NCBI GenBank assembly: GCA_021845685.1
Contig: JAJZVN010000018.1
Location: 1 to 44,100, forward strand
From: a bacterium
Lineage (GTDB): Bacteria > SZUA-79 > Acidulodesulfobacterales > Acidulodesulfobacteraceae
Length of the DNA stretch: 44,100 nucleotides
Reading direction: 5' to 3'
Shown: piece after piece, positions 4,104 through 32,376 of the stretch
Position numbering within the stretch: the stretch's first letter is position 1
Layout of the letters: every line of letters begins with the position of its first letter
Program-made: the position numbers and the translations under genes
Notes under the pieces: generated by a model
The model's input: the letters and a program-made list of their open reading frames with translations, nothing else
The model's database searches: none
What the model was told of the DNA's origin: nothing

Positions 4104-5492
4104 ATGACTACAAACGAACGAAAAACAATTTCCCTCTTAAGCTTGTCCCATTTTTTTTGCCACGTTGCGATACTTACATTCCCCGCAATTTTAATTCTTT
4201 TAAAGGAAAAATTTCATGTGAGCTTTGCAACTCTCGGCATTATTGCAGGAATATATCTGTTTTTATTTGGAGCAGGGTCCTTACCCGTCGGTTTTATCGC
4301 AGATAAGATAAATAAAAATTTTCTGCTTAAGGTTTATTTAATTGGAATGTCGTTAAGTGCATTTTTAGCAGCTTTATCCGGAAATTTTTATATTTTCGCT
4401 GTTTTTATTATATTAATGGGTTTAATTGCGAGTATTTACCACCCCGTCGGTTTAAGCATTATGTCTTTTGTGAAAACCGATAAATTAAGAGGTTTTGCTA
4501 TTCATGGGATAGCAGGGACATTAGGAGTAGCATTAAGCGCCGCATTTGCAGGATTTTTAGGCTATTATTACGGTTATAATGCGCCTTATTTAGTATTGGG
4601 TTTGATTTTTTTATTTATATTTGTTTACTCTTTTTTTGTAAAAATTGAGTCAAACAAAATAGAAAATGTTAATAATAGAAACAATAATTTAAATAATATA
4701 AATAGAAACAATACAATAAATAATATAAATAGAAACAATACAATAAATAATATAAATTCAAACAATAATAGAAACAATAATTCAAATAATAATATAAATA
4801 TAAAAAATAAGATAAATTCAAATAGTGATAATAACTATGAAAATTATTCAGAAAGCAAAAATGCCAATTTACTTACAAATATTAAAAGTTTCTTTAATGA
4901 CTTTTTTCACAGGAATATAGTATTTATTTTTATAGTTGAATTTCTAAACGGTTTTGTTTTTCAAGGCGTATTTTCATTTTTGCCGGCTTACACGGGAATA
5001 GAATTGAAAAATTTTTTATTTTTTCATAATCAAACTGTTGCGGCAGGCAGTTTTTATGTGACGATAGCATTATTAGTCGGAGTTTTATTTCAATATTCAA
5101 GCACTTATATTACAAAAAGATATAAACCAAACAGGGTATTTTCCGTTTTAGTTTTAATATCGGGAATATTCATTTTAATTTCAGGTTTTACGGGAGGTTT
5201 AATTTTATTTCTTTCTATACTGCTTTTTTCAGCATTTGATTTTTCTATAAATCCTATATCAAACCTTTTAATAAGTAGAAATGCCAAAGAATATTACAGG
5301 TCTACAGCTTACGGAATATTTTTTTTCGCAGGATTTGGCATTGGCTCTATAGCTGCGCCTATAGGCGGGTCTATAGCCAGTAGTTTTAAATTAAGCGATG
5401 CTTTCGTATTTTATGGAATTATAGCGTTGATTTCATTTGTTATATCTATTGCTATTACTAATTATAATGTTGATGAAGCCAAGACGAATTAA
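4104..5492 (+). CDS. Major facilitator superfamily transporter, Fsr-like
   Basis: About 460 residues with roughly twelve hydrophobic segments in two blocks (N-terminal half to ~residue 185, C-terminal half from ~270), the usual MFS layout. The first loop contains GxxxD-type cytoplasmic motif sequence (LPVGFIADKINK). The N-terminal region resembles fosmidomycin-resistance-type exporters, but the substrate is unknown. The central cytoplasmic loop (~190-255) is replaced by an Asn-rich stretch made of imperfect 27-base tandem repeats (4690-4760). Such a loop tolerates insertions, so function is probably kept. A GTG at 4098 is possible; the ATG at 4104 (MTTNERK) is preferred. The gene is co-directional with the epimerase, 51 bases downstream. 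Confidence 0.75.
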   Translation: MTTNERKTISLLSLSHFFCHVAILTFPAILILLKEKFHVSFATLGIIAGIYLFLFGAGSLPVGFIADKINKNFLLKVYLIGMSLSAFLAALSGNFYIFAVFIILMGLIASIYHPVGLSIMSFVKTDKLRGFAIHGIAGTLGVALSAAFAGFLGYYYGYNAPYLVLGLIFLFIFVYSFFVKIESNKIENVNNRNNNLNNINRNNTINNINRNNTINNINSNNNRNNNSNNNINIKNKINSNSDNNYENYSESKNANLLTNIKSFFNDFFHRNIVFIFIVEFLNGFVFQGVFSFLPAYTGIELKNFLFFHNQTVAAGSFYVTIALLVGVLFQYSSTYITKRYKPNRVFSVLVLISGIFILISGFTGGLILFLSILLFSAFDFSINPISNLLISRNAKEYYRSTAYGIFFFAGFGIGSIAAPIGGSIASSFKLSDAFVFYGIIALISFVISIAITNYNVDEAKTN

Positions 5493-5820: not shown

Positions 5821-7143
5821 ATGCATGGAAGCCACTATATAGTAATTACTGCAATAATTTTACTTTCAATTGCTTCTATCGGAGGAATTTTAACAAATTA
5901 TTTGAAAATTCCTTATACTTCAATGCTTGTCTTGATAGGTCTTGTTGTAGGTATTTTTCATATTTTTCCATATTTAAAGATAACGCCTTCTTTAATATAT
6001 TATGTATTTCTTCCTATTATTATTTTTGAAGGGGCTGTTAACATTAAAATTGGTCCTTTGATAGCCAATGCTCTGCCTATAAGTATATTATCGATATTCG
6101 GAACGATTTTTTCCGCAATTTTTATAGGCGTTTCATTTCATTTCATTTTAGATTTTCCGTTAAAACAATCTTTAATTTTTGGCGCTATTATAACTCCTAC
6201 AGACCCTATTTCAATACTTGCTTTATTGAAAAACAAGATAATAAAAAAATTAGGTTATAATAATAATTATAACGATAATGATAGCAATAATAGCGGCTAT
6301 AGCTTTGGCGACGGTATTAAAACAGTTTTAGAAGGCGAAAGTTTATTTAATGACGGAATAAGCCTTGTTTTATTCGAAGTTTTTTTAGGTTTAAACTTGC
6401 ACAATGCAGGATTAATTTTTTTAAAAGGGGATGTTTTAAATATCTTCAAATATATTTTTGGAATCATCGGAACTTCAACATTGCAGTTTTTGTATGAAGC
6501 GTTAGGAGGTTCTATATTGGGAGTTTTACTCGGTTATTTAGTATCGTTTATATTGTCTCTTACAGTGGATTATTTAACTGAAATTATGATATCTCTTCTT
6601 TTAGCTTATGTATCTTTAATAATAGCATATTATTTAAATGTATCTTTTATTATGGCGATTATATTTGGCGGAATAGTTCTTGTAAATTACGGGTTTAAGA
6701 AAAAAGTTTCAAGTCATACATTGGAAGTTTTCCCCGTTGTTATTGAATATATGACTTTTGTAATTAATTCTATTTTATTTTTAATCATAGGAATAGAAAT
6801 GAATTTGTTTAAAATTTTAAATTTATGGATTATTTCTATATTTATTATAATAATTGTAATATTATCGCGATTCATTGCGATATATTTGTTTTCGCCTATG
6901 ATAAACAAAATTCAAAATAAGTTTAAAATATTTTCAAAAAGCATAAAATTAAATAAGCAGTATAAAAGATTTCTTGTTTTTGGCGGTTTAAGAGGGGCGT
7001 TGCCGATTGCAATGGCACTGTCATTGCCATTAAATTTATATATGAGGTCTACGATAATTACTTATGTTTTTATTACGGTTCTTTTTTCACTAACAGCTCA
7101 GGCAATAATATTTGATATTTTTTCAAAAAAAGCGTTAAAATAG
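5821..7143 (+). CDS. Na+/H+ antiporter, CPA1/NhaP family
   Basis: A 440-residue membrane protein with about 12 hydrophobic helices. Family marks are the TPTDPI motif (residues 125-130) with the ion-binding aspartate and EGESLFNDGI (171-180) with the paired acidic residues. A later GGLRGALPIAMAL motif (~393-405) contains the conserved Arg of CPA1 exchangers. It should exchange cytoplasmic Na+ (or K+) for protons at the inner membrane. No C-terminal TrkA or large cytoplasmic domain is present. A short Asn/Asp-rich insert (147-158) lies just after the TDP motif loop, another example of the low-complexity inserts seen across the window. It appears monocistronic. The antiporter, the K+ channel and the ClC protein in the window would all affect ion and pH balance. 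Confidence 0.85.
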   Translation: MHGSHYIVITAIILLSIASIGGILTNYLKIPYTSMLVLIGLVVGIFHIFPYLKITPSLIYYVFLPIIIFEGAVNIKIGPLIANALPISILSIFGTIFSAIFIGVSFHFILDFPLKQSLIFGAIITPTDPISILALLKNKIIKKLGYNNNYNDNDSNNSGYSFGDGIKTVLEGESLFNDGISLVLFEVFLGLNLHNAGLIFLKGDVLNIFKYIFGIIGTSTLQFLYEALGGSILGVLLGYLVSFILSLTVDYLTEIMISLLLAYVSLIIAYYLNVSFIMAIIFGGIVLVNYGFKKKVSSHTLEVFPVVIEYMTFVINSILFLIIGIEMNLFKILNLWIISIFIIIIVILSRFIAIYLFSPMINKIQNKFKIFSKSIKLNKQYKRFLVFGGLRGALPIAMALSLPLNLYMRSTIITYVFITVLFSLTAQAIIFDIFSKKALK

Positions 7144-7295: not shown

Positions 7296-9572
7296 ATGAT
7301 TATGAAAGATATGAAAACTTTTGAAACCGCGGGATTTCTTTTAGATAAACTTCATTTGATACAAGATGAACAAGGTTGTATAGATGAAAAATCTATAGAA
7401 TTAATTGCAGATGAATTAAATATGTCAAAAGCCGAAATATACGGCGCTGCGACATATTATAAGGATTTTAAGATAAAAAATTTAACCCCTGATAATAATA
7501 ATTTTACTAATCATAATCTTAATCATAATCATAATCATAAAATTTCTAGCGCCAATATTCCTGACGATAGTGTTTCTCATTTTGATATACGCAATGTTAG
7601 TGGCGCAAATAATTCAGTTAAAGCTGAAAATTGCAAATTAAATAATTTAAATAATAATAATAATAAATTAAACGATGATTATAATTTAAACGAAAATCAC
7701 AATAATAATAATAAAGATACAATAAATAAATCTTTAAATTTAAATTCAATTAACATTAAATCTGATTTTGTTTTTAAAAGAATCGGCAAAATAAATCCGG
7801 ATTCTTTGGATGATTACAAAAATAAAGGCGGATTTAAAGCAATAGAAAATGTTTTATATTTAATTAAGAATAATAATATTGCAAATGATGTAATTGCTGT
7901 AAATGATATAAACGGTGCAATAAATAATACAATAAATAATGCGAATAATACAATTTATGCAAATGATGCCAAAAATAATAATAATAAAAAAAACGATAAA
8001 AATATTATTATTGATATTTTAAAAAAATCTGGATTGAGAGGCAGAGGCGGAGCAGGTTTTCCTGCAGCCATAAAATGGGAAACGGTTTTTAACACCCGAA
8101 GTATTGATAAATATGTTGTATGTAATGCAGATGAAGGTGATAAGGGTACTTTTATAGATAGATTAGTTATGGAAAATGACCCTTTTATGCTGATAGAGGG
8201 CATAATTGTTTCAGCAATTACTGTAGGAGCCAAACAAGGTTTTATTTATGTCAGGTCTGATTATCAAAATGGGATAGAAAGATTAAAAAATGCAATAAAT
8301 TTATGTTATCAGGCAGGTTATCTCGGAAATAATATATTTAATTCAGATAATATTTTTGATTTAAAAGTAATAGCGGCAGGCGGAAATTATGTTTGCGGAG
8401 AAGAAACCGCTCTTTTAGAAAGTATTGAGAATAAAAGAGGAATGGTGAGAGTTCGTCCGCCTGTTCCTGCTGTTTTAGGTCTTTACGGTAAACCTACTAT
8501 TTTAAGCAACGCTACCACTTTTGCTTCGGTTGCATATATTTTTGGTAATCTGGATATTAATAATAATGATATTAATAATAATTTGGATATTAATATAAAA
8601 AATACCTTCAAAAACAATATAAACGAAAATAACGATAAAGAAATTAATGGCAAAAATAATAAAAATAAACACAGTCGATGTATTATCAATAAAAATTATA
8701 AAGATAATAATAATTTTATTAATTTAGATAAGTCATTTAAGTCAGATAAGTCAGATAAGTCAGATAAGTTAGATAAGTCAGATAATTTAAATGATTTAAA
8801 AATAGAACAGCTGCCGTTTCCTTTTCAATTATCGGGGGCAGTTAAAAATGCAGGTATTTACGAGTTAAGTAATGAAATCACTTTAAAATATCTAATTTAC
8901 GATATGGGCGGCGGTTCTGCAGATAAAGGAAAAAAATTAAAAGCAGTGCAAATCGGCGGTCCTCTGGGAGCATTTTTCCCGTTAGCCGATGCCTATGGCG
9001 ATGAATTTTATAATATAAAACTGGATTACGAAGATATAGCTGATAAAGGAGGTATGTTAGGGCATGGAGGTGTGGTAGTTTACGATGAAGATGCTTCTAT
9101 GAAAGATTTATTAAAAGACACATTAAATTTTTGCGTTGAAGAATCATGCGGAAAATGCTCTCCGTGCAGGATAGGTTCTATAAGGCTAAAAGAATTATTT
9201 GAAAGAATTTTTAAAGAAAATATTTCTAATAAAATCAAAACCGATAAGGGCAATCAAGACGGAAAAGATAACCAATATAATCAAAATAACCAAGACAATC
9301 AAAATGTTCAAGATAATAAAAATAAACAAGACAATCAAAATGCTCAAGATAATAAAAATAAACAATATAATCAAGATAATAAAAAAGATAATAAAGTTGA
9401 AAATATCGGGGTTATAAGTGAAATTAAATCTAAAATAACAAAGGATAATTTAGATATAATATATGAAATACTTGATGCAATGAAAAATTTATCTCTTTGC
9501 GGCTTTGGCAGCGGGATATGTCTTCCCATAGAAAGTCTTTTAAAATATTTCGGCGATGAAATATTGAGTTAA
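7296..9572 (+). CDS. fdsB: NAD-dependent formate dehydrogenase, NADH/FMN subunit (FdsB/NuoF-like) with N-terminal NuoE-type helical domain
   Basis: 758 residues. Residues ~8-60 resemble the N-terminal helical domain of NuoE/FdsG (LNMSKAEIYGAATYYKDFK), but the following thioredoxin-like [2Fe-2S] domain is absent and replaced by an Asn-rich linker (~62-155). The NuoF core follows: FMN/NADH loop GLRGRGGAGFPAAIKW (246-261), CNADEGDKGTF (276-286), YVCGEETALLES (366-376), SLBB-like LPFPFQLSGAVKNAG (506-520), and the N3-type [4Fe-4S] ligands Cys618, Cys621, Cys624 and Cys735. Further low-complexity inserts interrupt it at ~191-237, ~418-503 (including five 9-base repeats at 8739-8783) and ~645-702 (including a 36-base-spaced repeat). 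In this family the subunit takes electrons from the catalytic subunit and reduces NAD+ on FMN. It precedes fdsA by 159 bases in the same direction. Confidence 0.85.
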   Translation: MIMKDMKTFETAGFLLDKLHLIQDEQGCIDEKSIELIADELNMSKAEIYGAATYYKDFKIKNLTPDNNNFTNHNLNHNHNHKISSANIPDDSVSHFDIRNVSGANNSVKAENCKLNNLNNNNNKLNDDYNLNENHNNNNKDTINKSLNLNSINIKSDFVFKRIGKINPDSLDDYKNKGGFKAIENVLYLIKNNNIANDVIAVNDINGAINNTINNANNTIYANDAKNNNNKKNDKNIIIDILKKSGLRGRGGAGFPAAIKWETVFNTRSIDKYVVCNADEGDKGTFIDRLVMENDPFMLIEGIIVSAITVGAKQGFIYVRSDYQNGIERLKNAINLCYQAGYLGNNIFNSDNIFDLKVIAAGGNYVCGEETALLESIENKRGMVRVRPPVPAVLGLYGKPTILSNATTFASVAYIFGNLDINNNDINNNLDINIKNTFKNNINENNDKEINGKNNKNKHSRCIINKNYKDNNNFINLDKSFKSDKSDKSDKLDKSDNLNDLKIEQLPFPFQLSGAVKNAGIYELSNEITLKYLIYDMGGGSADKGKKLKAVQIGGPLGAFFPLADAYGDEFYNIKLDYEDIADKGGMLGHGGVVVYDEDASMKDLLKDTLNFCVEESCGKCSPCRIGSIRLKELFERIFKENISNKIKTDKGNQDGKDNQYNQNNQDNQNVQDNKNKQDNQNAQDNKNKQYNQDNKKDNKVENIGVISEIKSKITKDNLDIIYEILDAMKNLSLCGFGSGICLPIESLLKYFGDEILS

Positions 9573-9731: not shown

Positions 9732-12700
9732 ATGGTATCTATCGAAGTTGACGGGCAAAAAATTATTGCTAAAGAAGGTATGACTTTGCTTGATGCGGCA
9801 GCAGCGGCAGGGCTCGCAATACCGTCTTTATGCGCTTCAAAAAATCTTTTGCCTTATGGGGCATGCAGAATATGCGCCGTTGAAATGGAAGGCAAAAAAG
9901 GTTATATTTACGCTTGTTCCGCTTATGTCAGCGAAGGTATGAAAATAAAGACAATTTCCGAAAAACTTTTTTCTTTAAAACGGACATTAATGGAACTTTA
10001 TCTTTCAGACCATCCTAATGATTGTTTAACCTGTCCTCAAAATCTTGATTGCGAATTGCAAAAATGGGCTTCATATTTCGGCGTTAGAAAAATTAGATTT
10101 AGAGGTAAAAGTCATCTTTTAAGTACCGTTGACGAATCAAACCCATATTTCAGATTTGATCCTTCGCGTTGCATCGTTTGCGCAAGATGCGTCAGAGCAT
10201 GCAATGAAATTCAAGGCAATTTTGCTTTAACAATTGTCGGCAGGGGTTTTGATTCGGTTATTAAACCCGTCAAAAAAAGCTCTAAAAATTTAAATTTATT
10301 TAAAATTAATAAAGTTAATAAGATTACTAAGGTATATAAGACAGACAAGACAGCAGATAGCATAGATAAGACAGTTAAAAGTAATATTATAAATAATGTT
10401 AACAATATAGAAGATATAAGCATTGCCGATGACGCAGATAATTTTTTAAATTCCGAATGCGTTTCATGCGGGGCATGCGTAAAAGAATGTCCTACCGCCG
10501 CATTGACCGAAAAAAATTTATTTGAATCGGGAAAAACTTTTTCAAAAACAAGAACAACTTGTGCATATTGCGGAGTGGGATGTTCGTTTGAGGTTCAATA
10601 TAAAGGCGATAATATAATAAGAATGATCCCGAATGAAGATAGTTTGTCAAATTACGGTCATTCTTGTCTTAAAGGGCGTTTTGCGTGGAGCTATGTTAAA
10701 AGTAAAGACAGATTAACCGTTCCGCTTTTAAGAGATAATTTAAACGAAGAATTTAAAGAAGTTTCATGGGAAGAAGCATATAGCTATATTGCAAAAAAAT
10801 TTAAAGAAATACAATCTAAATACGGCATTAATTCAATAGGCGCAATAAGTTCGTCAAGATGCACAAATGAAGAAAATTATTTGATGCAAAAAATGGTAAG
10901 AGCTGCGTTTCAAAACAATAACATAGATACTTGCGCAAGAGTTTGCCATCAGCCGACAGGTTATGCTCTCGGAGCTGCATTTGGAGCAGGAGCCGGAACT
11001 CAGGATTTAAGTTCAATGTTTGAATCCGATTTGATTATGATTATAGGCGCAAATCCCACCGAGGCTCATCCTGTAGTAGGTGCATTTATAAGAAAAATGG
11101 CAAGAAAAGGGGCAGATTTAATAGTAATAGACCCGCGTATAACAGAAGTTGCAAAATCTCCGCATGTAAAAGCAAAATTTCATTTAAGACCGAAACCTGG
11201 AACAAATGTAGCTCTTTTAAACGCTTTTGCATACACGATAATTAAAGAAGGACTTTTAAAGCAGGATTTTATAAAAAATAGATGCGATATTGAAAGTTTT
11301 AATTTATGGGAAGATTTTATTTTAAACGATAATAATTCTCCGGAAGCGGCTGAAGTTATAACGGGAGTTGCCGCAAATGAAATTAAAGAAGCGTCGATGT
11401 TATACGCAAGAGCTAAAAATGCGGCTATTTTTTACGGGCTCGGCGTAACTGAACATTTACAGGGTTCAACAGGAGTACTTGCAATAGCTAATCTTGCAAT
11501 GTTGACGGGCAATATTGGAAGAAAGGGCGTAGGAGTTAGTCCTTTAAGAGGGCAGAACAATGTTCAGGGAGCCGCCGATATGGGCGCAGAACCTGCAACG
11601 CTCCCCGGTTATCGCCATATTTCAGACGATAATATAAGAAACTTATTTGAAAATGAATGGAATGTAAAAATTGATAAAGACCCAGGAATGCGTCTTCCCG
11701 ATATGCTAAGAAACGCTTTGGCAGGAAAATTTAAAGGATTATATGTTTTAGGAGAAGATATTGTTCAAACAGACCCTGATTCAAATCGTATAATAGAATC
11801 TTTAAAAGCAATGGATTTAGTCATAGTTCATGATTTATTTAAAACTGTAACGTCCGAATATGCGCACGTTATACTTCCGGGTTCTTCATTTCTTGAAAAA
11901 GACGGAACTTTTACAAATTGGGAAAGAAGAATTCAGAGAGTCAGAAAGGTTTTAGAACCTGCGGGAGGAAAGCAGGATTGGCAGATTATCGAAGATTTAA
12001 GCAGGTATTTGACAGAACATGCAGCAGAAGATAAATCAGCAGAAGATAAACCAGACAGTTTTACAGCTGTTTTTACAAAATCTACGAAGGCTGCGGCAGA
12101 AGGAGGCTATAGACAGACGACGCCGCTGTCAGCGACCAACACTAACAATAATGGCTCCGGTAAGCATAAGGCAGGTTTGACAGGTTTAAATTATGCCCAT
12201 CCTTCCGAAATTATGGATGAAATAGCAAGACTCACGCCGTCTTTTGCATCCGTAAGTTATGAAAAATTGAATAAAAAACCTTATTCTATTCAATGGCCCT
12301 GCAATGAAAATACCCGGAATGGAGCCGATATTTTACATAAAGACGCTTTTATCAGAGGAAAAGGAAGATTTATTATTACTTCTTTTATTGGTTCTAAAGA
12401 TTATACAACTGCAGAATATCCTTTTATACTCACTACGGTAAGAAACTTGTTTCAATATAATTGTTCAAACAATACAAGACGAACAGAAAATAGCACATGG
12501 TATGACGAAGATTATTTAGAAATAAACGAAGAAGATGCAAAAAGATTAAATATAAATAATGGCGATATTGTTTTAATTAAAAGCAAAAAAGGAAAAATTA
12601 CTTTAACGGCTAAAATAAGCGAAAGAGTAATGAAAGGCATTGTTGCTACCACATTCCATTTTCCTGAATTTAAAACAAATATACTGACAAGCGATTACTC

Positions 12701-12944
12701 CGACTGGTCAACGGAAACACCGGAATATAAAGTAACCGCCGTAAATATTAAAAAGGTTGAAAAAAATAAAAAAGAAGCAAGCACAGAATATAAATTTACA
12801 GAATCATATAATGATGAAGTTTTAAGAATGTTTAAAGATATTGTTTTAATATTTAAAGATTATCCTGAAGATATTGCAGTCCAAGAAATTACAGCTCACA
12901 TTAAGAAATATTGGGAACAAAATCTTATAGAATTTTTTGAGTGA
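9732..12944 (+). CDS. fdsA: NAD-dependent formate dehydrogenase catalytic subunit (FdsA-like) with fused C-terminal FdsD-like domain
   Basis: 1070 residues. Cofactor ligands visible in order: [2Fe-2S] Cys34, 45, 48, 62; His94-Cys98-Cys101-Cys107; two ferredoxin clusters Cys147/150/153/157 and Cys243/246/249/253; and the [4Fe-4S] of the molybdopterin domain Cys277/280/284/312. The active site is TCARVCHQPTG with Cys405 (TGC codon, so not selenocysteine) and His406. SPLRGQNNVQGAADMG and the C-terminal dinucleotide-binding domain (~900-1010) complete the bis-MGD fold (Mo or W). The enzyme should oxidise formate to CO2 in the cytoplasm, passing electrons to FdsB. Residues ~1025-1070 (EVLRMFKDI ... 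ITAHIKKYWEQNL) resemble the separate FdsD subunit. Low-complexity inserts occur at ~180-235 (between the ferredoxin clusters) and ~770-820. There are no FdsC-type neighbours. Confidence 0.9.
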   Translation: MVSIEVDGQKIIAKEGMTLLDAAAAAGLAIPSLCASKNLLPYGACRICAVEMEGKKGYIYACSAYVSEGMKIKTISEKLFSLKRTLMELYLSDHPNDCLTCPQNLDCELQKWASYFGVRKIRFRGKSHLLSTVDESNPYFRFDPSRCIVCARCVRACNEIQGNFALTIVGRGFDSVIKPVKKSSKNLNLFKINKVNKITKVYKTDKTADSIDKTVKSNIINNVNNIEDISIADDADNFLNSECVSCGACVKECPTAALTEKNLFESGKTFSKTRTTCAYCGVGCSFEVQYKGDNIIRMIPNEDSLSNYGHSCLKGRFAWSYVKSKDRLTVPLLRDNLNEEFKEVSWEEAYSYIAKKFKEIQSKYGINSIGAISSSRCTNEENYLMQKMVRAAFQNNNIDTCARVCHQPTGYALGAAFGAGAGTQDLSSMFESDLIMIIGANPTEAHPVVGAFIRKMARKGADLIVIDPRITEVAKSPHVKAKFHLRPKPGTNVALLNAFAYTIIKEGLLKQDFIKNRCDIESFNLWEDFILNDNNSPEAAEVITGVAANEIKEASMLYARAKNAAIFYGLGVTEHLQGSTGVLAIANLAMLTGNIGRKGVGVSPLRGQNNVQGAADMGAEPATLPGYRHISDDNIRNLFENEWNVKIDKDPGMRLPDMLRNALAGKFKGLYVLGEDIVQTDPDSNRIIESLKAMDLVIVHDLFKTVTSEYAHVILPGSSFLEKDGTFTNWERRIQRVRKVLEPAGGKQDWQIIEDLSRYLTEHAAEDKSAEDKPDSFTAVFTKSTKAAAEGGYRQTTPLSATNTNNNGSGKHKAGLTGLNYAHPSEIMDEIARLTPSFASVSYEKLNKKPYSIQWPCNENTRNGADILHKDAFIRGKGRFIITSFIGSKDYTTAEYPFILTTVRNLFQYNCSNNTRRTENSTWYDEDYLEINEEDAKRLNINNGDIVLIKSKKGKITLTAKISERVMKGIVATTFHFPEFKTNILTSDYSDWSTETPEYKVTAVNIKKVEKNKKEASTEYKFTESYNDEVLRMFKDIVLIFKDYPEDIAVQEITAHIKKYWEQNLIEFFE

Positions 12945-13219: not shown

Positions 13220-13636
13220 TTAAGGATTTCTGACGTCAAGCCCTTTTATTCTTTTAAAGTCTTTATTGTCATAGGTATATACAACAGATATTCCTATATT
13301 AAATCCCCAATAAGACATCAGGGCATCGCCAAATTTAATATTGCTGCCTGCATATTCGGAAATAGCATTTCTAAAAATATCCTCCGATTCTATTTTAAAC
13401 TCTGGAGTATTTAAAATAGCCTCTACCAGTTCTTTTATTGTTTCTTTCGGAAGCTTATAAACTTTTTCCAGAACAAATACCGTTTCTATAAGAGCAATTG
13501 GTAATATATATAAAGACAAACCGTTATTTTTTGACTCTTTAATCAATGCGATTGAATTTTTTCTTTTATTGTCATCGTCTTTAACTAATATCCTCAATAT
13601 AACGCTTGTATCAACGAATGCTTTATTTGTAGTCAT
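13220..13636 (-). CDS. vapC: VapC-family PIN-domain ribonuclease toxin
   Basis: 138 residues from the ATG at 13636. PIN-domain acidic residues are visible: Asp9 in FVDTSVILR, Glu51 in LIETVFVLE, Asp104 in KFGDALMSYWG, and Asp123/Asp126 in TYDNKDFKRI. These coordinate Mg2+ for endoribonuclease activity, and VapC toxins typically cut tRNA or rRNA. A TTG at 13648 is an alternative start. The ATG is preferred because it gives the usual short N-terminus before the first Asp. It overlaps the stop of vapB by 14 bases, so translation is probably coupled and the pair forms one operon. The RNA target cannot be told from sequence. Confidence 0.85.
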   Translation of the reverse strand: MTTNKAFVDTSVILRILVKDDDNKRKNSIALIKESKNNGLSLYILPIALIETVFVLEKVYKLPKETIKELVEAILNTPEFKIESEDIFRNAISEYAGSNIKFGDALMSYWGFNIGISVVYTYDNKDFKRIKGLDVRNP

Positions 13637-13856
13637 TTGCAGCCTCAACTGTAGCCTTTTCTATCATCTTATCTATGCTTATGCCAAGATTCGGCAATAT
13701 ACCTGCATAATCCAATATAGTTTTAGTTTTTTTTAAAATTATCTCGTTGTTTTTTTCTTCAAGTATAAGAGGGTCTCCGACATCTATGCCAAGTCTTTCC
13801 CTGACATTTTTAGGAAGAGTAATTTGCCCTTTAGGTAAAACCTTAATAGCTTGCAT
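13623..13856 (-). CDS. vapB: VapB-type antitoxin with AbrB/SpoVT DNA-binding domain
   Basis: 77 residues. The N-terminal ~45 residues (KVLPKGQITLPKNVRERLGI and GDPLILEEKNNEIILKK) are a clear swapped-hairpin AbrB domain, which dimerises on operator DNA. The C-terminal ~30 residues should wrap the PIN toxin and block its active site. It is the first gene of the vapBC operon. As in known systems, antitoxin and complex would repress their own promoter, which should lie in the AT-rich region just upstream (13857-13960), where repeated TAATTAATTTAA-like words occur. Together with vapC it is the whole cargo between the 177-bp direct repeats. Confidence 0.85.
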   Translation of the reverse strand: MQAIKVLPKGQITLPKNVRERLGIDVGDPLILEEKNNEIILKKTKTILDYAGILPNLGISIDKMIEKATVEAANDYK

Positions 13857-14742: not shown

Positions 14743-17700
14743 TTAAGGTTCTTGAAACCATGAAGTCGGCGTTACTTTTGAAGGCAAAGACGGAATTTGT
14801 TGTGTAAATACATTTCCTGTTGATGTTGTTATGTCAAGATAGCCATTATTTGTTATGACAGGAGCAGATGCCACGCCTGAACCAATAGTCGTTGATTGAA
14901 CAGCTCCGCTTAAAGTTGAAGCCGCAGCATTAATAGTAATTCCTGAAGATGAAACTAAAATAGTACCTCCTCCATTAAGATAGTTTAAGGCATATAATTT
15001 TGAAGTTCCATAACCGCAGGCATTTGTCGCTGATGAAGGCGTAAATGTAGTAAAATAAATAATATCGTCGTATACTATCGGAACCGAGGTTACTTTTTCT
15101 CCCCCGGAGTATTTTCCGTCCGGCAAAAGTATGCCCCGCAAAGTTATATACCATCCGTCCGCAGATTGTACATCAGTTAAGTTTTCCGTTGAGCCGCTAA
15201 CGCCGGTCTGATTGACCAAATCCGATTCGTTAATCGGACCGCCTGAAGGGCAAGTCAATGGTCCGCCTATCGCAGTCGTATTTATTGCGATAAATTCATT
15301 ATTTCTTGAAGTTATGACTTCATTTAAATCTTCCCTGTTTCCTGTTCCAAAATAGACCCAGAAGTTTCCTGAAGTATCTGTTGACGTTGCGGGTGAAAAG
15401 AAGATATTTAACGGAGGATATTCAGATGCAGGATAGGTTGCAGTGTTTCCGTATTCCGAAGCAAAAATTCTGCATGCGTCCCAGTTTGAAGCCCCCGAAG
15501 GTTTATAAGGCGCAGAGCCGTCAGGGATATTTACTGACCACATTTGCCCGCCTAAATCTCCGGCATAAAAACCTTCTATTCTAAAATTTTGACTTAAAAC
15601 AGGTGTGACAGCCGAAGGTATTGAATATTTCATGTTTGAGTTTAGGTCTTTTGCCGAAGGGAACTCCCATAAAATTTGTTCATCGGTATAATTTGGAGCT
15701 GCAGATGTTCCGGTGTTTACAGGATTCGGTTCAACATACAACGCGTATAAAGCATTGCCAAGACTATTAGTTGACGAATAGCCTCCGCCGATAAAAGCAG
15801 CATATGTTTTTATAAATTCAGGCGCTAAAGAACTGTCGGGAGTCTCCGGATTATTTCCGCATACATTTGCCGTAATGCTATTTCCATTTTTATAATAAGG
15901 ATTAGGCAAACATACATAAGAAACATACGGCTTAGACCATGTATTGCCCATAGAACTGTCTGTAATATTCCATAACGGGTCAGGATATGAAGAACTTGAA
16001 GGATTTGTAATTCCTAAAGCGTAATAATAATTTCCCCCGTTTCTTTCACCCCCGACTAATACTGTATGCCAGCTATTCTGTAAACTGCTCTGATTTAAAG
16101 GGTAATTAGAACCGTCAATAGAATTTGGCGTGGTTTCACCTGTAGAGGTTCCATTATTTACATATTCATTAAATATATTGCTAAAAAATACATCCGATGC
16201 TACCGGTGTTGAATCTACGAATTCCGGAAAATTTAATTTTGTTCCTACGCCTATTGAACTGTCATACCATGAAGTTATTTTTGGAAGCAGATTTGGTGGA
16301 ATATAGCCGAAAACTTCAGCTCCCGTTCCATATGTATATGAATTTGTAGAACTGTCCCAGCTTCCTGCGTTAAAAGCATGAAGCATGCCGTCATTGGCGC
16401 CTACGTAAAGCACTACATTTCTGGGGTTTGTTGTAGTATATTCCTGTTTAAATAATTGATATGAGCTGCTTGAATATGGAAACGCCGGAGGACCGACTAT
16501 AACAGGGCTGGAATGGAAAATAGCCCCTAATTTCCATTTATCTGTTGATGAATCAGGATCAAGCACAAAATTTAAAATATCGGCTGTGCATGCCGTAACT
16601 TCTGCCGATGTAGCGGGATTCGCAGTTGTTACGCTTGGGCAGATAGTAGAAGTATTGGCGGCGGTAACGCCTAACAATGTCTGCAATACTGAATTTCCGC
16701 TGCTTGAACTGACGGCGGTGTTTGAAGAGTTTATAGTTTCTGTATCTTGCGACCCTGAAGATGGATTTAAATAGGAGGATAAAACATATCTTGAAGAGCC
16801 GGAATTGGATTGAAGCAAACCTCCTGCTCCGTTTCCGTTGTCCCAGTATGAATCGCCGGTAAGTATTTGACCGTTTGCTCCAACGGCGGAACCGTAAGGA
16901 CCACTTAAAGTATAAGGCGGCGCAATACACTCGGTTCCTAAACTATTTAATGTAGATCCGCTCGGACAGGTTGCGGGAACAGGAGCAGGTTCAACGCATT
17001 CATTTCCTGAACTATTTAACGTAAATCCGCTCGGACAGGTTGAGTTTAGCTTAAATAAAAATATGTTGCCCTCTCCCCATAACGGCTGGTTTAGCGATTT
17101 AAAATCGGTGTAATACACATACTGCCCTGTTGATGTTTCATTAGCTACGGGGGAAGTAAAGGAAGCCGTTTGTTTTTCTATTTGATTAAAAATAGTCGTT
17201 AAAGAAGATTCAAGATCTGTTAAATTATAAGCAAGATAAACTGTGCCCGATAATGTTAATGTTAGATCACTAGGTGTCTTAGCCAGCGAATTTGATAAAA
17301 GAATTTCATTGCTGTTTGGGTAGACGGCGGTTATAGTGGCGCAATCCTTAGTATATGAATCGCTATAATTATTATTTACTTCGCAATCTGAAGACTGCCA
17401 TCCGTTATCTGAAATTGTATCGCCTACTAAAACACTATTTTTTGTTCCAAATAATGTTGTCGGAATTTCAAGCAAAGTTCCTGCGCTGTTCTGAACCGTT
17501 GCAGAGATTTTAGTTATTCCGTCAGGATTTGCTTCAGGATTGATGCCCGCTCCCGCATTCGCCATTCCCTGAATATAAGTTCCGCTCCCTACGGCATTGC
17601 TATAACCGAACCCTATCATAAAAAGTTCAATAGGATACTTGCTTTTACTTAAGCTTAAATTATATAAATCGTAAACTTCGTATGGAGTATAGGCTGATGG

Positions 17701-19038
17701 AACTCCGTTAGGATTATTAATATTGTCGGGAGTAGAACATGAAGGAATTGCTAAAGGTGAGTTTGGAATAGTTAAAGCGTTTTCATTGCATCCGGCATTG
17801 GCTTCCCCGTCCGTAATTATAATGGCAAAATTTTTTCTTCCGCATGTCTCGGCAGAATCAGCATTTAAAGAATTTTGAAAATACCCGTACATATCTCCGA
17901 CAGAATCTGCCATAGGAGTTCCGCCTCCGGCTTTTAATCCCGTAACGGGATTTCCATCCGGATTTTCAACATTTCTGGTAGAAAGTGATGAAGAACATTC
18001 TATTCTTTTTCCAAATGTTGTATCAATAATTTGACAATTTTTGATATTATTGTTATATATTGGAGCATCCCATAAAAGCCAGTCTAAAGCAGGAGATGCT
18101 ACATTTTCAGGGTCAAAGTAAGGGTCTGTAGAGTTAGAAGAATTTGAAGAAACGGTTATTGACTGAGATGCCGATAAATTACCCGAGCCGTTGATGTAAG
18201 TTGTGTTAGGAATATATAAATTCCAGGGATAATCGCCAAATGTACCTATCCCTGTGTAATTATTCACGCCGCTATAGTCGTACGATATAAAATAATATGT
18301 AGAATCATTATAAGTGATAGTATTCGGACACGTGTAGGGGGAACTTGAAATTTCATAATTTGGAACGGATATAAAAGGATAATCAAGATTTACTGGGCAA
18401 CTATTTGGATTTGTTGCGCAGGCATTTGACCCATCCTTCGTAAAACTTCCGTTTTCATCAGGAATACCTGTCGCGGTTGTTCCTGAAACCGCATAATGAG
18501 GTGCGTCAGCTGAATTTTGAAAAGACTCGTCGGCAGAATAGATACACCAGTTCTCCTGAGTTTTCCCGTTAAGCGCATACCATGGCTGATAAAATGATGC
18601 AAAAGCAAAATTAAGATTTGAAAAATTAGAATCGCTTACTATTTTTTCTATTGCCACTTTAGCGTTATATATTTTTGAAAACATAGAATTTGAACCGGGA
18701 GACCAAGACTTATAATATCGTTCAAAGTGATTATTATAATAATAAGCGTTTCCGCTTGCAGCCCAGCTTTCAGGAGGATTCGGATCTACTCCTGCGCTGT
18801 TGTCATATTCAACAGCTTTATTCCACATCATTGAGCCTGACGAGTCTAAAAATATTAAGACATTGGGATTGTTGACATTAGTTAAAAATGAAGTATCGGT
18901 TGCATAAGCCGATTTTATATTTTGTATTCCCGTTATATACGCCAAGCCGATGTTTATTGTAAATATCAACAATAAAAGTATAAAAACGTTTTGAAGTAAA
19001 GACAAAAAATTTTTAATTTTTGCTTTATTTTTTTGCAT
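14743..19038 (-). CDS. pilY1: PilY1/PilC-type type IV pilus tip adhesin with N-terminal VWA domain
   Basis: 1431 residues. A signal-anchor-like N-terminus (~15-35) precedes a von Willebrand A domain whose MIDAS starts NVLIFLDSSGSM (Asp65, Ser67, Ser69). A later DGEANAG stretch lies in the same domain. Residues ~700-760 contain two copies of a small Cys repeat (CPSGxTLNSxGxEC). The C-terminal ~550 residues are the PilY1 beta-propeller, marked by YVGANDGMLHAFNAG and VLVGGERNGGNYYYALG. PilY1 proteins sit at the pilus tip or in the priming complex with minor pilins and bind surfaces, and the VWA domain is linked to surface sensing. It is the last gene of a pilV-pilW-pilX-pilY1 set transcribed leftwards, 43 bases after pilX. 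The length is in the usual range. Confidence 0.9.
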   Translation of the reverse strand: MQKNKAKIKNFLSLLQNVFILLLLIFTINIGLAYITGIQNIKSAYATDTSFLTNVNNPNVLIFLDSSGSMMWNKAVEYDNSAGVDPNPPESWAASGNAYYYNNHFERYYKSWSPGSNSMFSKIYNAKVAIEKIVSDSNFSNLNFAFASFYQPWYALNGKTQENWCIYSADESFQNSADAPHYAVSGTTATGIPDENGSFTKDGSNACATNPNSCPVNLDYPFISVPNYEISSSPYTCPNTITYNDSTYYFISYDYSGVNNYTGIGTFGDYPWNLYIPNTTYINGSGNLSASQSITVSSNSSNSTDPYFDPENVASPALDWLLWDAPIYNNNIKNCQIIDTTFGKRIECSSSLSTRNVENPDGNPVTGLKAGGGTPMADSVGDMYGYFQNSLNADSAETCGRKNFAIIITDGEANAGCNENALTIPNSPLAIPSCSTPDNINNPNGVPSAYTPYEVYDLYNLSLSKSKYPIELFMIGFGYSNAVGSGTYIQGMANAGAGINPEANPDGITKISATVQNSAGTLLEIPTTLFGTKNSVLVGDTISDNGWQSSDCEVNNNYSDSYTKDCATITAVYPNSNEILLSNSLAKTPSDLTLTLSGTVYLAYNLTDLESSLTTIFNQIEKQTASFTSPVANETSTGQYVYYTDFKSLNQPLWGEGNIFLFKLNSTCPSGFTLNSSGNECVEPAPVPATCPSGSTLNSLGTECIAPPYTLSGPYGSAVGANGQILTGDSYWDNGNGAGGLLQSNSGSSRYVLSSYLNPSSGSQDTETINSSNTAVSSSSGNSVLQTLLGVTAANTSTICPSVTTANPATSAEVTACTADILNFVLDPDSSTDKWKLGAIFHSSPVIVGPPAFPYSSSSYQLFKQEYTTTNPRNVVLYVGANDGMLHAFNAGSWDSSTNSYTYGTGAEVFGYIPPNLLPKITSWYDSSIGVGTKLNFPEFVDSTPVASDVFFSNIFNEYVNNGTSTGETTPNSIDGSNYPLNQSSLQNSWHTVLVGGERNGGNYYYALGITNPSSSSYPDPLWNITDSSMGNTWSKPYVSYVCLPNPYYKNGNSITANVCGNNPETPDSSLAPEFIKTYAAFIGGGYSSTNSLGNALYALYVEPNPVNTGTSAAPNYTDEQILWEFPSAKDLNSNMKYSIPSAVTPVLSQNFRIEGFYAGDLGGQMWSVNIPDGSAPYKPSGASNWDACRIFASEYGNTATYPASEYPPLNIFFSPATSTDTSGNFWVYFGTGNREDLNEVITSRNNEFIAINTTAIGGPLTCPSGGPINESDLVNQTGVSGSTENLTDVQSADGWYITLRGILLPDGKYSGGEKVTSVPIVYDDIIYFTTFTPSSATNACGYGTSKLYALNYLNGGGTILVSSSGITINAAASTLSGAVQSTTIGSGVASAPVITNNGYLDITTSTGNVFTQQIPSLPSKVTPTSWFQEP

Positions 19039-19720: not shown

Positions 19721-20962
19721 TTAGCTTCCATAATACACATTTCTTAAAAACACATTTGAATTAAGGGTTTCGTCTATGTTATATCCTCTAGAGCTATTTG
19801 AATTGGCATTATATTTTGAATTTACGCTGTAATTTGGCGAACTAGATATTACCGTATTTGTTTCTCCTTGAATCAGTAAGTTATAAAGATAAATGGAGGG
19901 TGGCGTAGATACAGGGAGAAAAGCTGCCGAACCTCCTTGAATCAGTGAGTTAGTTAATGTTAAGTTAGTCGTCAGAGGATTAACGGAAAACTCTGTTATA
20001 TAATTATCAAGCCTCATAGTAGTATTAGGATAGCAGGCAGGTGCTTCACCTGAAAGAGAAGCAGGGGAAGAAACGCTAAATTGATAGTAGCCTGCCGTCG
20101 GTCCGGACAGAAGAACCGGAGGGTTGATTTTACATTCATATAATCCACCGTTAGGTTGTTTAGTGAGCGAATTAATTCCGTTAAAAGGTGCGTTAAAGCT
20201 ATATGCCGCATTGCCCCAGTAAAACATGGTCTGAGTTAGAATAGAAACGTTTCCTCCTTCTACCCCTTTAGGAGGAATAGGATTGGGATTATTTGGACAA
20301 ACTCCGAGTCCGTTTCCGGGGCTTAGCTGAATTTTACCTCCTGTACCTGTAGCCTGCACATTTGTTATGCAGAATATCATGCTGCCGGACGGAAGCGATT
20401 TTCCATTGACCGGGGTAGGATTTTGAAAACTCAAAAGCTGACCGGTTTGGAAATTTGATATATTGCAATTTTGACCAAGATTGAACTCTGCACTTGTCGC
20501 GGCAGCCTTTGCTATATTAGCCGTTGGTGTTAAAGTGCATGGCGCACCGTTATTTATGACGGAAAAATGGGTAATTAATACGGCAAACGGATTATTCGGA
20601 TAATTTGCTGATACTATTTGCACAGGCGGAATGACCTGCGTCGTTGGTACTCCTTGAGAAGCGTAAAAATAATTAGAACCATAGTCGAAACCTGCCAGTC
20701 TAAAAGAGTACTTTAGCTTGTTGTATGCAACGTTAAGATTTTGCTGTTCAGCCGATATTGAATTTTGAGACCTGAAAACTCCTGATTGGGACAAAAGAAT
20801 AAATGACGCTGCGGCTAATACTAATAAAGATATAACTACGGCAATAATAAGTTCTATTAAAGTCACGCCTTTATCGTTAAATAAAAGTTCTAATGCCTTA
20901 CTTTTATTTTTACTTAATTTTCTTCTTAATCTTAATCTTAATCTTAATCTTAATCTTGACAT
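19721..20962 (-). CDS. pilW: PilW-like minor pilin with Arg-Leu repeat leader
   Basis: 413 residues. A type III prepilin signal is clear: NDKG^VTLIELIIAVVISLLVLAAASFILL with Glu+5 after the processing Gly (~residue 34), followed by the PilW-type helix continuation (QNLNVAYNKLKYSFRLAGFDYG). The globular C-terminal part is long, Pro/Asn-rich and poorly conserved, as usual. The leader is odd: MS followed by five Arg-Leu pairs and RRK, encoded by an AGATTA hexanucleotide satellite (20925-20957). The resulting ~33-residue leader is far longer and more basic than usual. No other ATG/GTG/TTG lies between the satellite and the processing site, so the start is forced unless a rare codon is used. PilD-type peptidase would remove the leader. 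Confidence 0.8.
   Translation of the reverse strand: MSRLRLRLRLRLRRKLSKNKSKALELLFNDKGVTLIELIIAVVISLLVLAAASFILLSQSGVFRSQNSISAEQQNLNVAYNKLKYSFRLAGFDYGSNYFYASQGVPTTQVIPPVQIVSANYPNNPFAVLITHFSVINNGAPCTLTPTANIAKAAATSAEFNLGQNCNISNFQTGQLLSFQNPTPVNGKSLPSGSMIFCITNVQATGTGGKIQLSPGNGLGVCPNNPNPIPPKGVEGGNVSILTQTMFYWGNAAYSFNAPFNGINSLTKQPNGGLYECKINPPVLLSGPTAGYYQFSVSSPASLSGEAPACYPNTTMRLDNYITEFSVNPLTTNLTLTNSLIQGGSAAFLPVSTPPSIYLYNLLIQGETNTVISSSPNYSVNSKYNANSNSSRGYNIDETLNSNVFLRNVYYGS
20925..20957 (-). repeat. Hexanucleotide satellite coding (Arg-Leu)5 at the pilW start
   Basis: CTTAAT repeated about 5.5 times on the plus strand (AGATTA on the coding strand) immediately after the pilW start codon. Slippage by whole units would change leader length and charge in steps of two residues without shifting frame. 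Confidence 0.9.
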
Positions 20963-22007: not shown

Positions 22008-22703
22008 TTACTTTTGTTTTAATTTGTTGTTATAATTAGTAAAAATATTTATTGCGACATTCTTAGAATATTCTTCTATATTTAGCCAATTCTGCCATTT
22101 TTTATCAAGATTTTTATATTTAGTCAAATCAGTTTCTTTTAAATCGTAAGGCAGCGGTTTTGTTAATTGGACAATTAATTGTCTTAAAGCTGAAGCATTA
22201 TTTTCTTGAGGGTATAATTCATCTAAATTTTTTAAAGCTTCATTAGTTTTATTGACGCCTAAATGATCGGCTAATGCTATAAAGTCGATATAATCCCGTG
22301 TTGCATTCCTTATAAGTATTAAAAAACCCTTAATTCTTAAAATTTCCGCCGCTGTCGGAACGGTCAATTTTTGACCTTTATATTCTATTTCAGTCGTTTC
22401 TAACGGCATAGTTCTTCTAAGCTGTCTTATACCTGTTTCAATGCCGTTAAGATTACCAAGAATCAATACCGGCGGTTTTATTCTTGAAGTTTGCCAGCCC
22501 GTTACGGCTTCAAGAGTCGATAAAATATCGTTAAATCTCTCTTTTAGATCTTTAACGACAAAATCCGTATCATATGATGTTCTGTGTTCAGAATATAAAG
22601 CTGATGCAGTCCCTCCTACTATAATAGCATCAGGCAAAATATCGTTAATTCTCGCTATATTTGAAATAACATTTTCCCATTCTTCTTTATCTTTATCTTT
22701 CAT
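22008..22703 (-). CDS. Nucleotidyltransferase-fold protein, AbiEii/MNT-like toxin candidate
   Basis: 231 residues. The N-terminal part has the polymerase-beta-like signature: hydrophobic strand, GG (residues 30-31, IIVGGTASALYSEHRTSYDTDFVV) and the metal-binding Asp45-x-Asp47 pair. After ~100 residues, TAAEILRIKGFLILIRNATRDYIDFIALADHLG fits the helical substrate region of AbiEii-type (formerly DUF1814) proteins. Such enzymes add nucleotides to tRNA or proteins and act as toxins or as antitoxins in two-gene modules. It overlaps its upstream partner by 11 bases, so the two are translated together. Both lie between ~40-bp direct repeats, suggesting a mobile defence/stress cassette. Toxin versus antitoxin role is inference. 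Confidence 0.7.
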   Translation of the reverse strand: MKDKDKEEWENVISNIARINDILPDAIIVGGTASALYSEHRTSYDTDFVVKDLKERFNDILSTLEAVTGWQTSRIKPPVLILGNLNGIETGIRQLRRTMPLETTEIEYKGQKLTVPTAAEILRIKGFLILIRNATRDYIDFIALADHLGVNKTNEALKNLDELYPQENNASALRQLIVQLTKPLPYDLKETDLTKYKNLDKKWQNWLNIEEYSKNVAINIFTNYNNKLKQK

Positions 22704-25352: not shown

Positions 25353-25368
25353 TTTTATCAAAATAATT

Positions 25369-25450
25369 AAATATAAATATAAATATAAATATAAATATAA
25401 ATATAAATATAAATATAAATATAAATATAAATATAAATATAAATATAAAT
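25369..25450. repeat. Hexanucleotide satellite (AAATAT)~13.7
   Basis: An unbroken run of about 82 bases starts 17 bases after the K+-channel stop and grades into degenerate AATATGGAT-type units to ~25495. The same unit recurs right behind hslV (33204-33243). Confidence 0.95.
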
Positions 25451-25590
25451 AAATATGGATATGGATATAAATATAAATATGGATATGAATATTTAAGATA
25501 ATATAATATAATTAGTGTCGTATTTTTAGTATTTGAATTTTATATTTTAAAAAATAAAAAAATTTTCAAATATATTATATATCTTATGAT

Positions 25591-30891: not shown

Positions 30892-30908
30892 TAATTTAAA
30901 ATTTAAGC

Positions 30909-31075
<167 letters not shown>

Positions 31076-31078
31076 TAT

Positions 31079-31195
31079 CTATTTTTCAAATCTTGCTATA
31101 ATATATTTTTCCTGATTTTCAAATCTTGAATCAAAATATTTTTCGGCAGATACAGAAAATTCCATAACCTCTTCTTCCTTTGCTTGATTTTGCAT
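31079..31195 (-). CDS. Possible small ORF (38 aa), charged helix
   Basis: On the minus strand an ATG at 31195 opens 38 codons ending TAG at 31079: MQNQAKEEEVMEFSV followed by SAEKYFDSRFENQEKYI and ARFEK. It has codon-like structure, is strongly amphipathic and charged, and resembles the N-terminal part of coiled-coil proteins with YFDSRFE-type heptads. Only a weak AGAGAAA precedes it. The rest of the 31196-31452 gap is plain AT-rich sequence. It could be a gene remnant. Confidence 0.3.
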   Translation of the reverse strand: MQNQAKEEEVMEFSVSAEKYFDSRFENQEKYIIARFEK

Positions 31196-31452: not shown

Positions 31453-32376
31453 ATGGAAAATCAGCTTGATTATATTGAGGATTTTAAAAACTATCTAAGA
31501 CTTGATAAAAATTACTCCATAAATACGGTTATGGCATATTCCTCAGATGTAAAAGAATTATTTGTATATTTAAGAAATATTTTAAAAATTAATAATGTTT
31601 CAGAAATTACCGAAATAGACATTAGAGGATTTTTAAGCAAAGAATATGATAAAATTAAAAAAACAAGCCTTGCCAGAAAAATAGAATCTATAAAATCTTA
31701 TTTTAATTTTCTTGAAAAAAGACATATTATTAGCCAAAATCCTGTATTTCTTTTAGAATTGCCAAAGATAGAAAAGAAATTACCGTTTTTTTTAACCGTA
31801 AATGAAGCAGAATTTCTTCTAAATAATTATTATTTTTTATCTTCGCAAAAAAAAGGCAAAAAATATGAATTTGAAATTTTAAGAAATGATTTGATTTTAG
31901 AATTTTTATACGGAAGCGGTTTAAGAGTGAGTGAAATAATATCCGTAAAATATAAAGATTTAGAACTTAAAGAAGGTTACGTTAAAGTTATAGGTAAGGG
32001 TTCTAAAGAAAGAATAATACCTTTAACTTTTCAAACGATTGATAAGATTAAAAAATGGAAAGATTACATTGCTAAGGCTAATTTAAATTTTAAAAATGAA
32101 TTTTTAATTATTAATAGAAAAGGAAATCATTTAACTCGCAGAACGGTACACAGGATTGTTCATGAATCAATGATAATTACAGGTCAGTACAAAAATATAT
32201 CGCCACACAGCCTAAGACATTCTTTTGCTACACATTTGCTTGATAACGGCGCAGATTTGCGGTCTATTCAGGATATGCTCGGGCATTCCAATCTTTCAAC
32301 AACTGAAAAATATACGCATTTAAGTTTAAAAAAACTGCTTGATGTTTATAAACAAGCTCATCCTCATTCTAAATAA
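31453..32376 (+). CDS. xerC: Tyrosine recombinase XerC/XerD
   Basis: 307 residues, the normal length. The N-terminal SAM-like core-binding domain is ~1-95. The catalytic domain has all active-site residues: Arg158 (GSGLRVSE), Lys182 (GKGSKER), His252-x-x-Arg255 (PHSLRHSFATHLL), His278 (MLGHSNLSTT) and nucleophile Tyr287 (KYTHL). It should resolve chromosome dimers at dif with a partner Xer protein. Its position directly before hslVU and the arg genes is the usual deltaproteobacterial/firmicute context of xerC, which decides the name. XerC and XerD are not separable by motifs alone. It is not linked to the tRNA-Glu mini-element 7 kb away. Confidence 0.85.
   Translation: MENQLDYIEDFKNYLRLDKNYSINTVMAYSSDVKELFVYLRNILKINNVSEITEIDIRGFLSKEYDKIKKTSLARKIESIKSYFNFLEKRHIISQNPVFLLELPKIEKKLPFFLTVNEAEFLLNNYYFLSSQKKGKKYEFEILRNDLILEFLYGSGLRVSEIISVKYKDLELKEGYVKVIGKGSKERIIPLTFQTIDKIKKWKDYIAKANLNFKNEFLIINRKGNHLTRRTVHRIVHESMIITGQYKNISPHSLRHSFATHLLDNGADLRSIQDMLGHSNLSTTEKYTHLSLKKLLDVYKQAHPHSK

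Follow-up and report, generated by a model that had tools for sequence, protein, structure and literature searches.

Unstable tandem repeats and an in-frame filter as the probable source of asparagine-rich enzyme inserts in one genus of the Acidulodesulfobacteraceae

We propose that the asparagine-rich inserts interrupting conserved enzymes in one uncultured genus of the Acidulodesulfobacteraceae are explained by tandem arrays that are unstable across the whole genus, through slippage or unequal exchange, and that pass an in-frame filter within genes; we put the probability of this reading at about 0.8. It draws directly on the distribution of the inserts, on array lengths that differ between species, on the filter itself, on missing repair genes and on the predicted disorder of the inserts in FdsB. 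The gene content of the window (the whole stretch of 44,100 nucleotides that was analysed; 30.6% GC) is unremarkable, and Asn/Lys/Asp-rich stretches occur in several of its genes. The genomes searched comprised that of the window (G000, 3.04 Mb), those of six congeners and of another 23 members of the family, and others that share only the domain. The candidate phylum, SZUA-79 (Ca. Acidulodesulfobacteriota), spans 0.88-3.04 Mb and 28.2-43.6% GC (PMC11382960); the metagenome-assembled genomes AP1 (2.46 Mb, 47 scaffolds), AP2 (2.22 Mb, 5 scaffolds, 32.7% GC) and AP3 (1.87 Mb, 7 scaffolds, 37.4% GC) come from a paper whose main text contains neither the term "repeat" nor "mismatch repair" (PMC6776010).

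The most extreme carrier in the window is fdsB (7296-9572, plus strand), which encodes the beta subunit of an NAD-dependent formate dehydrogenase, a protein of 758 residues and 15.8% Asn. It has the features of its class, an FMN/NADH-binding 51K domain and a 4Fe-4S domain (Pfam Complex1_51K and NADH_4Fe-4S), and the core of its AlphaFold2 model matches C. necator FdsB (6vw7/6vw8) and also, at a target-normalised TM-score of up to 0.87, A. aeolicus NuoF. The original prediction gave this protein four inserts of roughly 280 residues in all; homologue alignment and the AlphaFold2 model bear this out, with non-homologous stretches at residues about 64-158, 195-237, 418-499 and 644-714 that total about 290. 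These Asn/Lys/Asp-rich stretches are extra with respect both to the protein's own family and to 47 FdsB/NuoF-type homologues from many phyla. Conservation of the inserts in distant homologues, which the prediction had named as one of two findings that would count against it, was not seen: none of the 47 homologues of other phyla has an Asn-rich stretch of this type (at most six Asn in any 30 residues).

Insert 1 (7485-7769, plus strand, as are all four) replaces most of the thioredoxin-like [2Fe-2S] domain; insert 2 (7878-8006) lies at the junction of the N-terminal region with the FMN domain, as a gap in at least 80% of non-genus homologues. Inserts 3 and 4 are likewise gapped in non-genus homologues, the former (8547-8792) at the FMN/SLBB domain junction and carrying the 9-bp unit AGATAAGTC repeated 6.7 times (8726-8785), the latter (9225-9437) within the 4Fe-4S domain and carrying a 36-bp repeat (x2.8 at 9273-9374 by TRF). 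The model was built on a 61-sequence alignment, replacing one on 11 sequences that gave a pLDDT of 42.7. Its core has 301 residues at pLDDT of at least 90, and, the first 12 residues aside, the segments below 50 (64-146, 218-231, 440-495 and 653-697) all fall within the four inserts, which are thus predicted to be disordered loops outside the fold; the insert-bearing enzymes presumably stay active. At the N-terminus (7296-7770) the helical start of the [2Fe-2S] thioredoxin-like (FdsG/NuoE) domain is kept, while insert 1 occupies the place of its missing cluster-binding part: the PF01257 match covers only profile positions 10-62 of 145, whereas a sister-genus homologue (L009) retains the entire domain.

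Elsewhere in the window, the gene for an RlmD-type methyltransferase (plus strand) has an Asn/Lys-rich insert (1721-1843) and a (TD)n insert made of ACTGAT repeats (2233-2318; ATACTG x9.5 at 2262-2318 by TRF). An MFS transporter gene carries an insert (4647-4862, plus strand) with the 27-bp repeat AATAGAAACAATACAATAAATAATATA (x3.9 at 4674-4779 by TRF), and the insert of FdsA (10257-10445, plus strand) sits within its 4Fe-4S ferredoxin region, with Pfam Fer4-type matches on both sides. The original prediction listed seven insert-bearing proteins. FdsB apart, those in RlmD, MFS and FdsA are clear, and the hexamer repeat in the PilW leader (20913-20957, minus strand, by TRF), which encodes (Arg-Leu)n ahead of the prepilin N_methyl motif, is real; the Asn/Asp insert of the NhaP-type antiporter (6241-6291, plus strand) is present, yet only about 15 residues long, and ArgH is a weak case, with an N-terminal tail of 20 residues rich in K/N/E, in a protein whose whole length differs by 2 residues from that in the nearest relative. 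All the tandem repeats that it named at the DNA level (the hexamer of RlmD and the 27-bp, 9-bp and 36-bp units) could be located.

Several other features of the window were noted in passing. The C-terminus of FdsA (9732-12944; residues 1031-1064) gives a weak FdsD match (PF11390, below the curated cut-off), which suggests an FdsA-FdsD fusion. A PilY1-like protein (14743-19038), a fast-evolving pilus-tip protein, is 69% identical to its counterpart in the nearest species, against 96-98% for nearby core enzymes. Two minus-strand ORFs, one PIN-domain-like (13220-13648) and one nucleotidyltransferase-like (22008-22703), are possibly, as judged by eye, parts of toxin-antitoxin or defence systems.

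The closest species, G002, has core enzymes 96-98% identical to those of the window and a pooled core dS of 0.165, and arrays differ between the two at many sites. Of the 27-bp unit, the MFS gene holds three near-identical copies against one in G002, a difference of exactly two units (54 bp); the 9-bp array of FdsB insert 3 is missing there (63 bp, or seven units), and insert 4 is 57 bp longer in the window. In RlmD the ACTGAT unit is present nine times, at a site where only a degenerate remnant, 27 bp shorter, is left in G002; the other RlmD insert differs by a 51-bp (17-codon) indel and that of NhaP by 15 bp, while the PilW leader repeat is of equal length in G002, though rearranged. Outside genes, a (TAAATA)24.5 microsatellite between the potassium channel and ClC genes (25368-25511) measures 144 bp in the window and 56 bp in G002, between almost identical flanks. 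A further microsatellite, of CTAT type (30908-31084 by TRF, between uppP and xerC), is long and unusual in a bacterium. The XerC of the window (31453-32376) has no insert, unlike that of the congener G003 (L060:13203-14231), in which the N-terminal SAM-like domain is split by some 45 Asn-rich inserted residues (53-97).

Taken over the whole comparison with G002, 12 of the 26 arrays in genes and 10 of the 16 between genes had changed in length, against 10 of 111 array-free coding segments. Every one of the 12 coding changes was a multiple of three, compared with 2 of the 10 intergenic ones, and several were of whole units. The same filter is seen in array periods, which, pooled over the genus, are divisible by three in 134 of 160 coding and 92 of 327 non-coding arrays (Fisher p about 2e-32). 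Asn-rich segments were also more repetitive than 100 codon shuffles (p<=0.05) in 22 of 66 cases, where about 3 were expected. Replication slippage or unequal exchange, which would leave identical traces, is therefore well supported as a source of the inserts, and the array length differences, the shuffle test and the period filter together uphold the original suggestion of slippage; we infer that it is still ongoing. The remaining 44 of the 66 segments were not significantly repetitive, and no tandem copy was found beside the largest inserts when these were compared with the nearest relative, so not every insert is demonstrated to be made by slippage. When all indels were tested for a copy in the flanking sequence, mean identity was 0.49, modestly above the 0.38 of shuffled sequence, the excess being small in part because the non-Asn indels of PilY1 were included. 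The non-repetitive segments may be arrays of greater age whose repeats substitution has obscured.

The original prediction of a genome-wide bias holds for the genus. Asn-rich ORFs, defined by 11 or more Asn in 30 residues among ORFs called by a simple greedy procedure in sampled stretches (598 kb of the window's own genome; the samples of G002 and G005 overlap in part with the region syntenic to the window), number 52 of 721 in the genus (31/464 in the genome itself and 3/82, 10/74, 6/72 and 2/29 in four of its congeners), against 2 of 507 in sister genera (1/85, 1/97, 0/102, 0/105, 0/60 and 0/58) and 0 of 208 in two outgroups (0/98 and 0/110). Across whole genomes, runs of five consecutive AAY occur 45-196 times per genome in the genus, 0-17 times elsewhere in the family and 0-3 times in 31 genomes from outside it, and four-Asn runs in the genome's own ORFs reach 2.1 per 10,000 residues, where composition predicts 0.34. 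Non-coding DNA follows the same pattern: per 100 kb, the genus has 160-250 tandem arrays and 39-85 strict microsatellites, while the other genomes have 0-70 and 0-10. The hosts are mostly enzymes: 19 of 20 insert-bearing ORFs scanned have a Pfam family match and, as named from their domains, include PurL, a PolX-type protein, DnaG, a class I aminoacyl-tRNA synthetase, GlmS, FtsK, UvrD, GlmU, a flavoprotein-type enzyme of the fumarate reductase/succinate dehydrogenase kind, a Mg-chelatase-type ATPase and a GatA-type amidase. PolA, RecJ and XseA, which had been picked for another reason, are also lengthened in the genus, PolA by inserts, and PolA and RecJ count among the hosts of Asn-rich stretches. 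The place and length of inserts vary between close species.

The composition of the inserts (Asn 35%, Phe 1.8%, Leu 4.1%) is unlike that of translated intergenic DNA (7.4%, 9.1% and 12.3%), which rules out captured spacer as their source; their codons have A at 63% of first and 61% of second positions and T at 54% of third positions. Against G002, dN/dS is 0.31 in Asn-rich stretches and 0.12 in cores, and dN 0.094 against 0.020, with the caveat that misalignment within repeats may raise both rates. Judged from their sequences, the inserts look translated, fast-evolving and under weak purifying selection, in a pattern which fits loops where nearly any hydrophilic, in-frame sequence will do; weak selection was among the suggestions of the original prediction. 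It might also be that disordered Asn-rich loops are themselves selected, for assembly, condensates or tolerance of acid or stress, with slippage supplying raw material; a dN/dS below 1 and the strongly non-random composition speak for such adaptation. However, constraint against hydrophobic residues yields an equal signal, unrelated classes of enzyme carry inserts whose place and length vary among close species, and a similar excess of repeats is found in intergenic DNA, so we consider adaptation unlikely.

Still less probable is that base composition alone, in an AT-rich genome of about 30% GC, produces Asn-rich stretches with no unusual mutation process. The genus does have the lowest GC of the genomes sampled, but four-Asn runs exceed expectation about sixfold, array lengths vary between species and microsatellites in the genus lie 2-4 fold above an order-3 Markov expectation; sister genera with an intergenic GC of 0.265-0.274 have none in the stretches sampled, whereas 39 per 100 kb were counted in the congener G003, whose intergenic GC is 0.262. 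For the clade studied, this explanation is largely refuted. That conserved enzyme domains are interrupted might suggest removal of the inserts before or during translation, as intron, intein or ribosomal bypass, to leave normal mature enzymes. We regard this as very improbable: 292 insert codons contain no in-frame stop (a chance of about 8e-15 at the base composition of the inserts), whereas the two remaining sense frames hold 19 and 94; this lack of stops, together with the dN/dS below 1, argues against removal at the RNA level, and every coding array change observed preserves the frame. Although repeats are a weak point of metagenome assembly from short reads, an origin as artefacts of assembly, the second finding that the prediction had named against itself, or as spurious ORFs deserves almost no weight, because independent assemblies of six congeners, one of them in 5 contigs, show open, frame-preserving inserts of species-specific length in conserved genes.

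No match to MutS1 (TIGR01070) or to the MutS ATPase domain (PF00488, which also catches MutS2) was found in any of 25 family genomes (G000-G024), which include genomes in 5 and 7 contigs, and the few matches to MutL (TIGR00585) in these 25 were short and weak (E 1e-3 to 5e-8) and fell well short of the cut-off; in outside genomes MutS1 and MutL were each above cut-off in 15 of 16. NucS is absent from the genus. This is possibly a candidate phylum without mismatch repair. The loss of mutS and mutL suggested by the original prediction is thus confirmed, but as a family-wide trait shared with sister genera, while repeats and inserts belong to one genus only; mismatch-repair loss is not the whole cause and at most permissive. 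Mismatch repair acts on loops of a few bases and hardly corrects units longer than 4 bases, and the majority of repeat units here are longer than that.

Among polA, recJ, xseA, sbcD and DnaQ-type exonucleases, no missing gene separates the genus from its sisters: the first three are all present in the genus, sbcD gives weak matches all through the family and DnaQ-type exonucleases are sporadic in it, with no split between genus and sisters. Nor is HSP20, the chaperone family counted in view of the prediction's suggestion of a tolerant chaperone system, expanded in the genus, with 2-3 copies against 2-4 in sister genera. The family PolA (L242:287-3352 and relatives) shows a weak 3'-5' exonuclease-like match (PF22619, E 1e-8 to 1e-10), and on this sequence evidence DNA polymerase I of the family may have lost proofreading; as family traits, this weak match and the sporadic DnaQ cannot alone explain a trait of the genus.

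We therefore favour, for the instability of tandem arrays and the in-frame filter, the following course of events. AT-rich arrays would form, lengthen and shorten frequently across the genome, by slippage or unequal exchange. In intergenic DNA arrays of any period could persist; in genes, a change would be retained only if it keeps the frame and yields a hydrophilic, disordered loop that spares the enzyme core. AT-rich codons, together with selection against hydrophobic residues, would turn such loops Asn-rich (AAT/AAC), and point mutation would then erode the arrays, leaving Asn-rich sequence that is no longer repetitive. The lack of MutS, MutL and MutS2 throughout the family probably contributes by being permissive for short units, and a genus-specific factor would also be needed. 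More tentatively, at a little short of even odds, this free-living genus may have a genome-wide insert-generating regime that combines mismatch-repair loss, a second, genus-specific change in replication or repair, and a proteostasis that tolerates Asn-rich loops.

The nearest parallel is Plasmodium falciparum, also an AT-rich genome, with Asn-rich inserts in all classes of protein and indels in AT-rich repeats (PMC3749963, PMC5389722), where exonic indels are mostly multiples of three (13/15) and non-exonic ones are not (PMC5389722, PMC3749963), and where the inserts are likewise confined to one lineage and missing from equally AT-rich relatives. By analogy the present system appears to work like that of Plasmodium, the likeness being established for repeat instability only. 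The two differ in that this is a bacterium with MutS and MutL absent, that pure poly-Asn runs are few and short mixed repeats (ND, NI, TD, SDK, DNQ) more common, and that about 24% of P. falciparum proteins have homorepeats against about 7% of sampled ORFs here by the criterion of at least 11 Asn in 30. Dictyostelium discoideum resembles it in Asn-rich low complexity throughout a poly-Asn/poly-Gln proteome, but with runs of at least 20 residues rather than mixed inserts in the loops of bacterial enzymes (PMC3749963). In the bacterium Ehrlichia ruminantium tandem repeats also actively expand and contract, as described there for non-coding DNA, whereas here they lie also within conserved enzymes, Asn-rich and filtered in multiples of three (PMC10710844). 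Low-complexity segments do occur in bacterial proteins, and a survey of more than 1500 prokaryotic and phage proteomes described them as conserved, with Asn heavily under-represented (PMC6821194); here, by contrast, Asn dominates and the stretches turn over among close species. In the open-access literature searched, we found no bacterial precedent for the present combination.

Annotation, alignment and structure pipelines may stumble on genes with such inserts, which are at the same time natural insertion maps of essential enzymes. Whether mutation or tolerance causes Asn-filled proteomes has been debated mostly on Plasmodium and Dictyostelium, and this genus provides an independent bacterial case. 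Its sister genera share the loss of mismatch repair, and some a similar intergenic GC, without having inserts, so that composition, repair loss and a third factor become separable. This uncultured acid-mine genus is a bacterial variant of the phenomenon known from Plasmodium and Dictyostelium.
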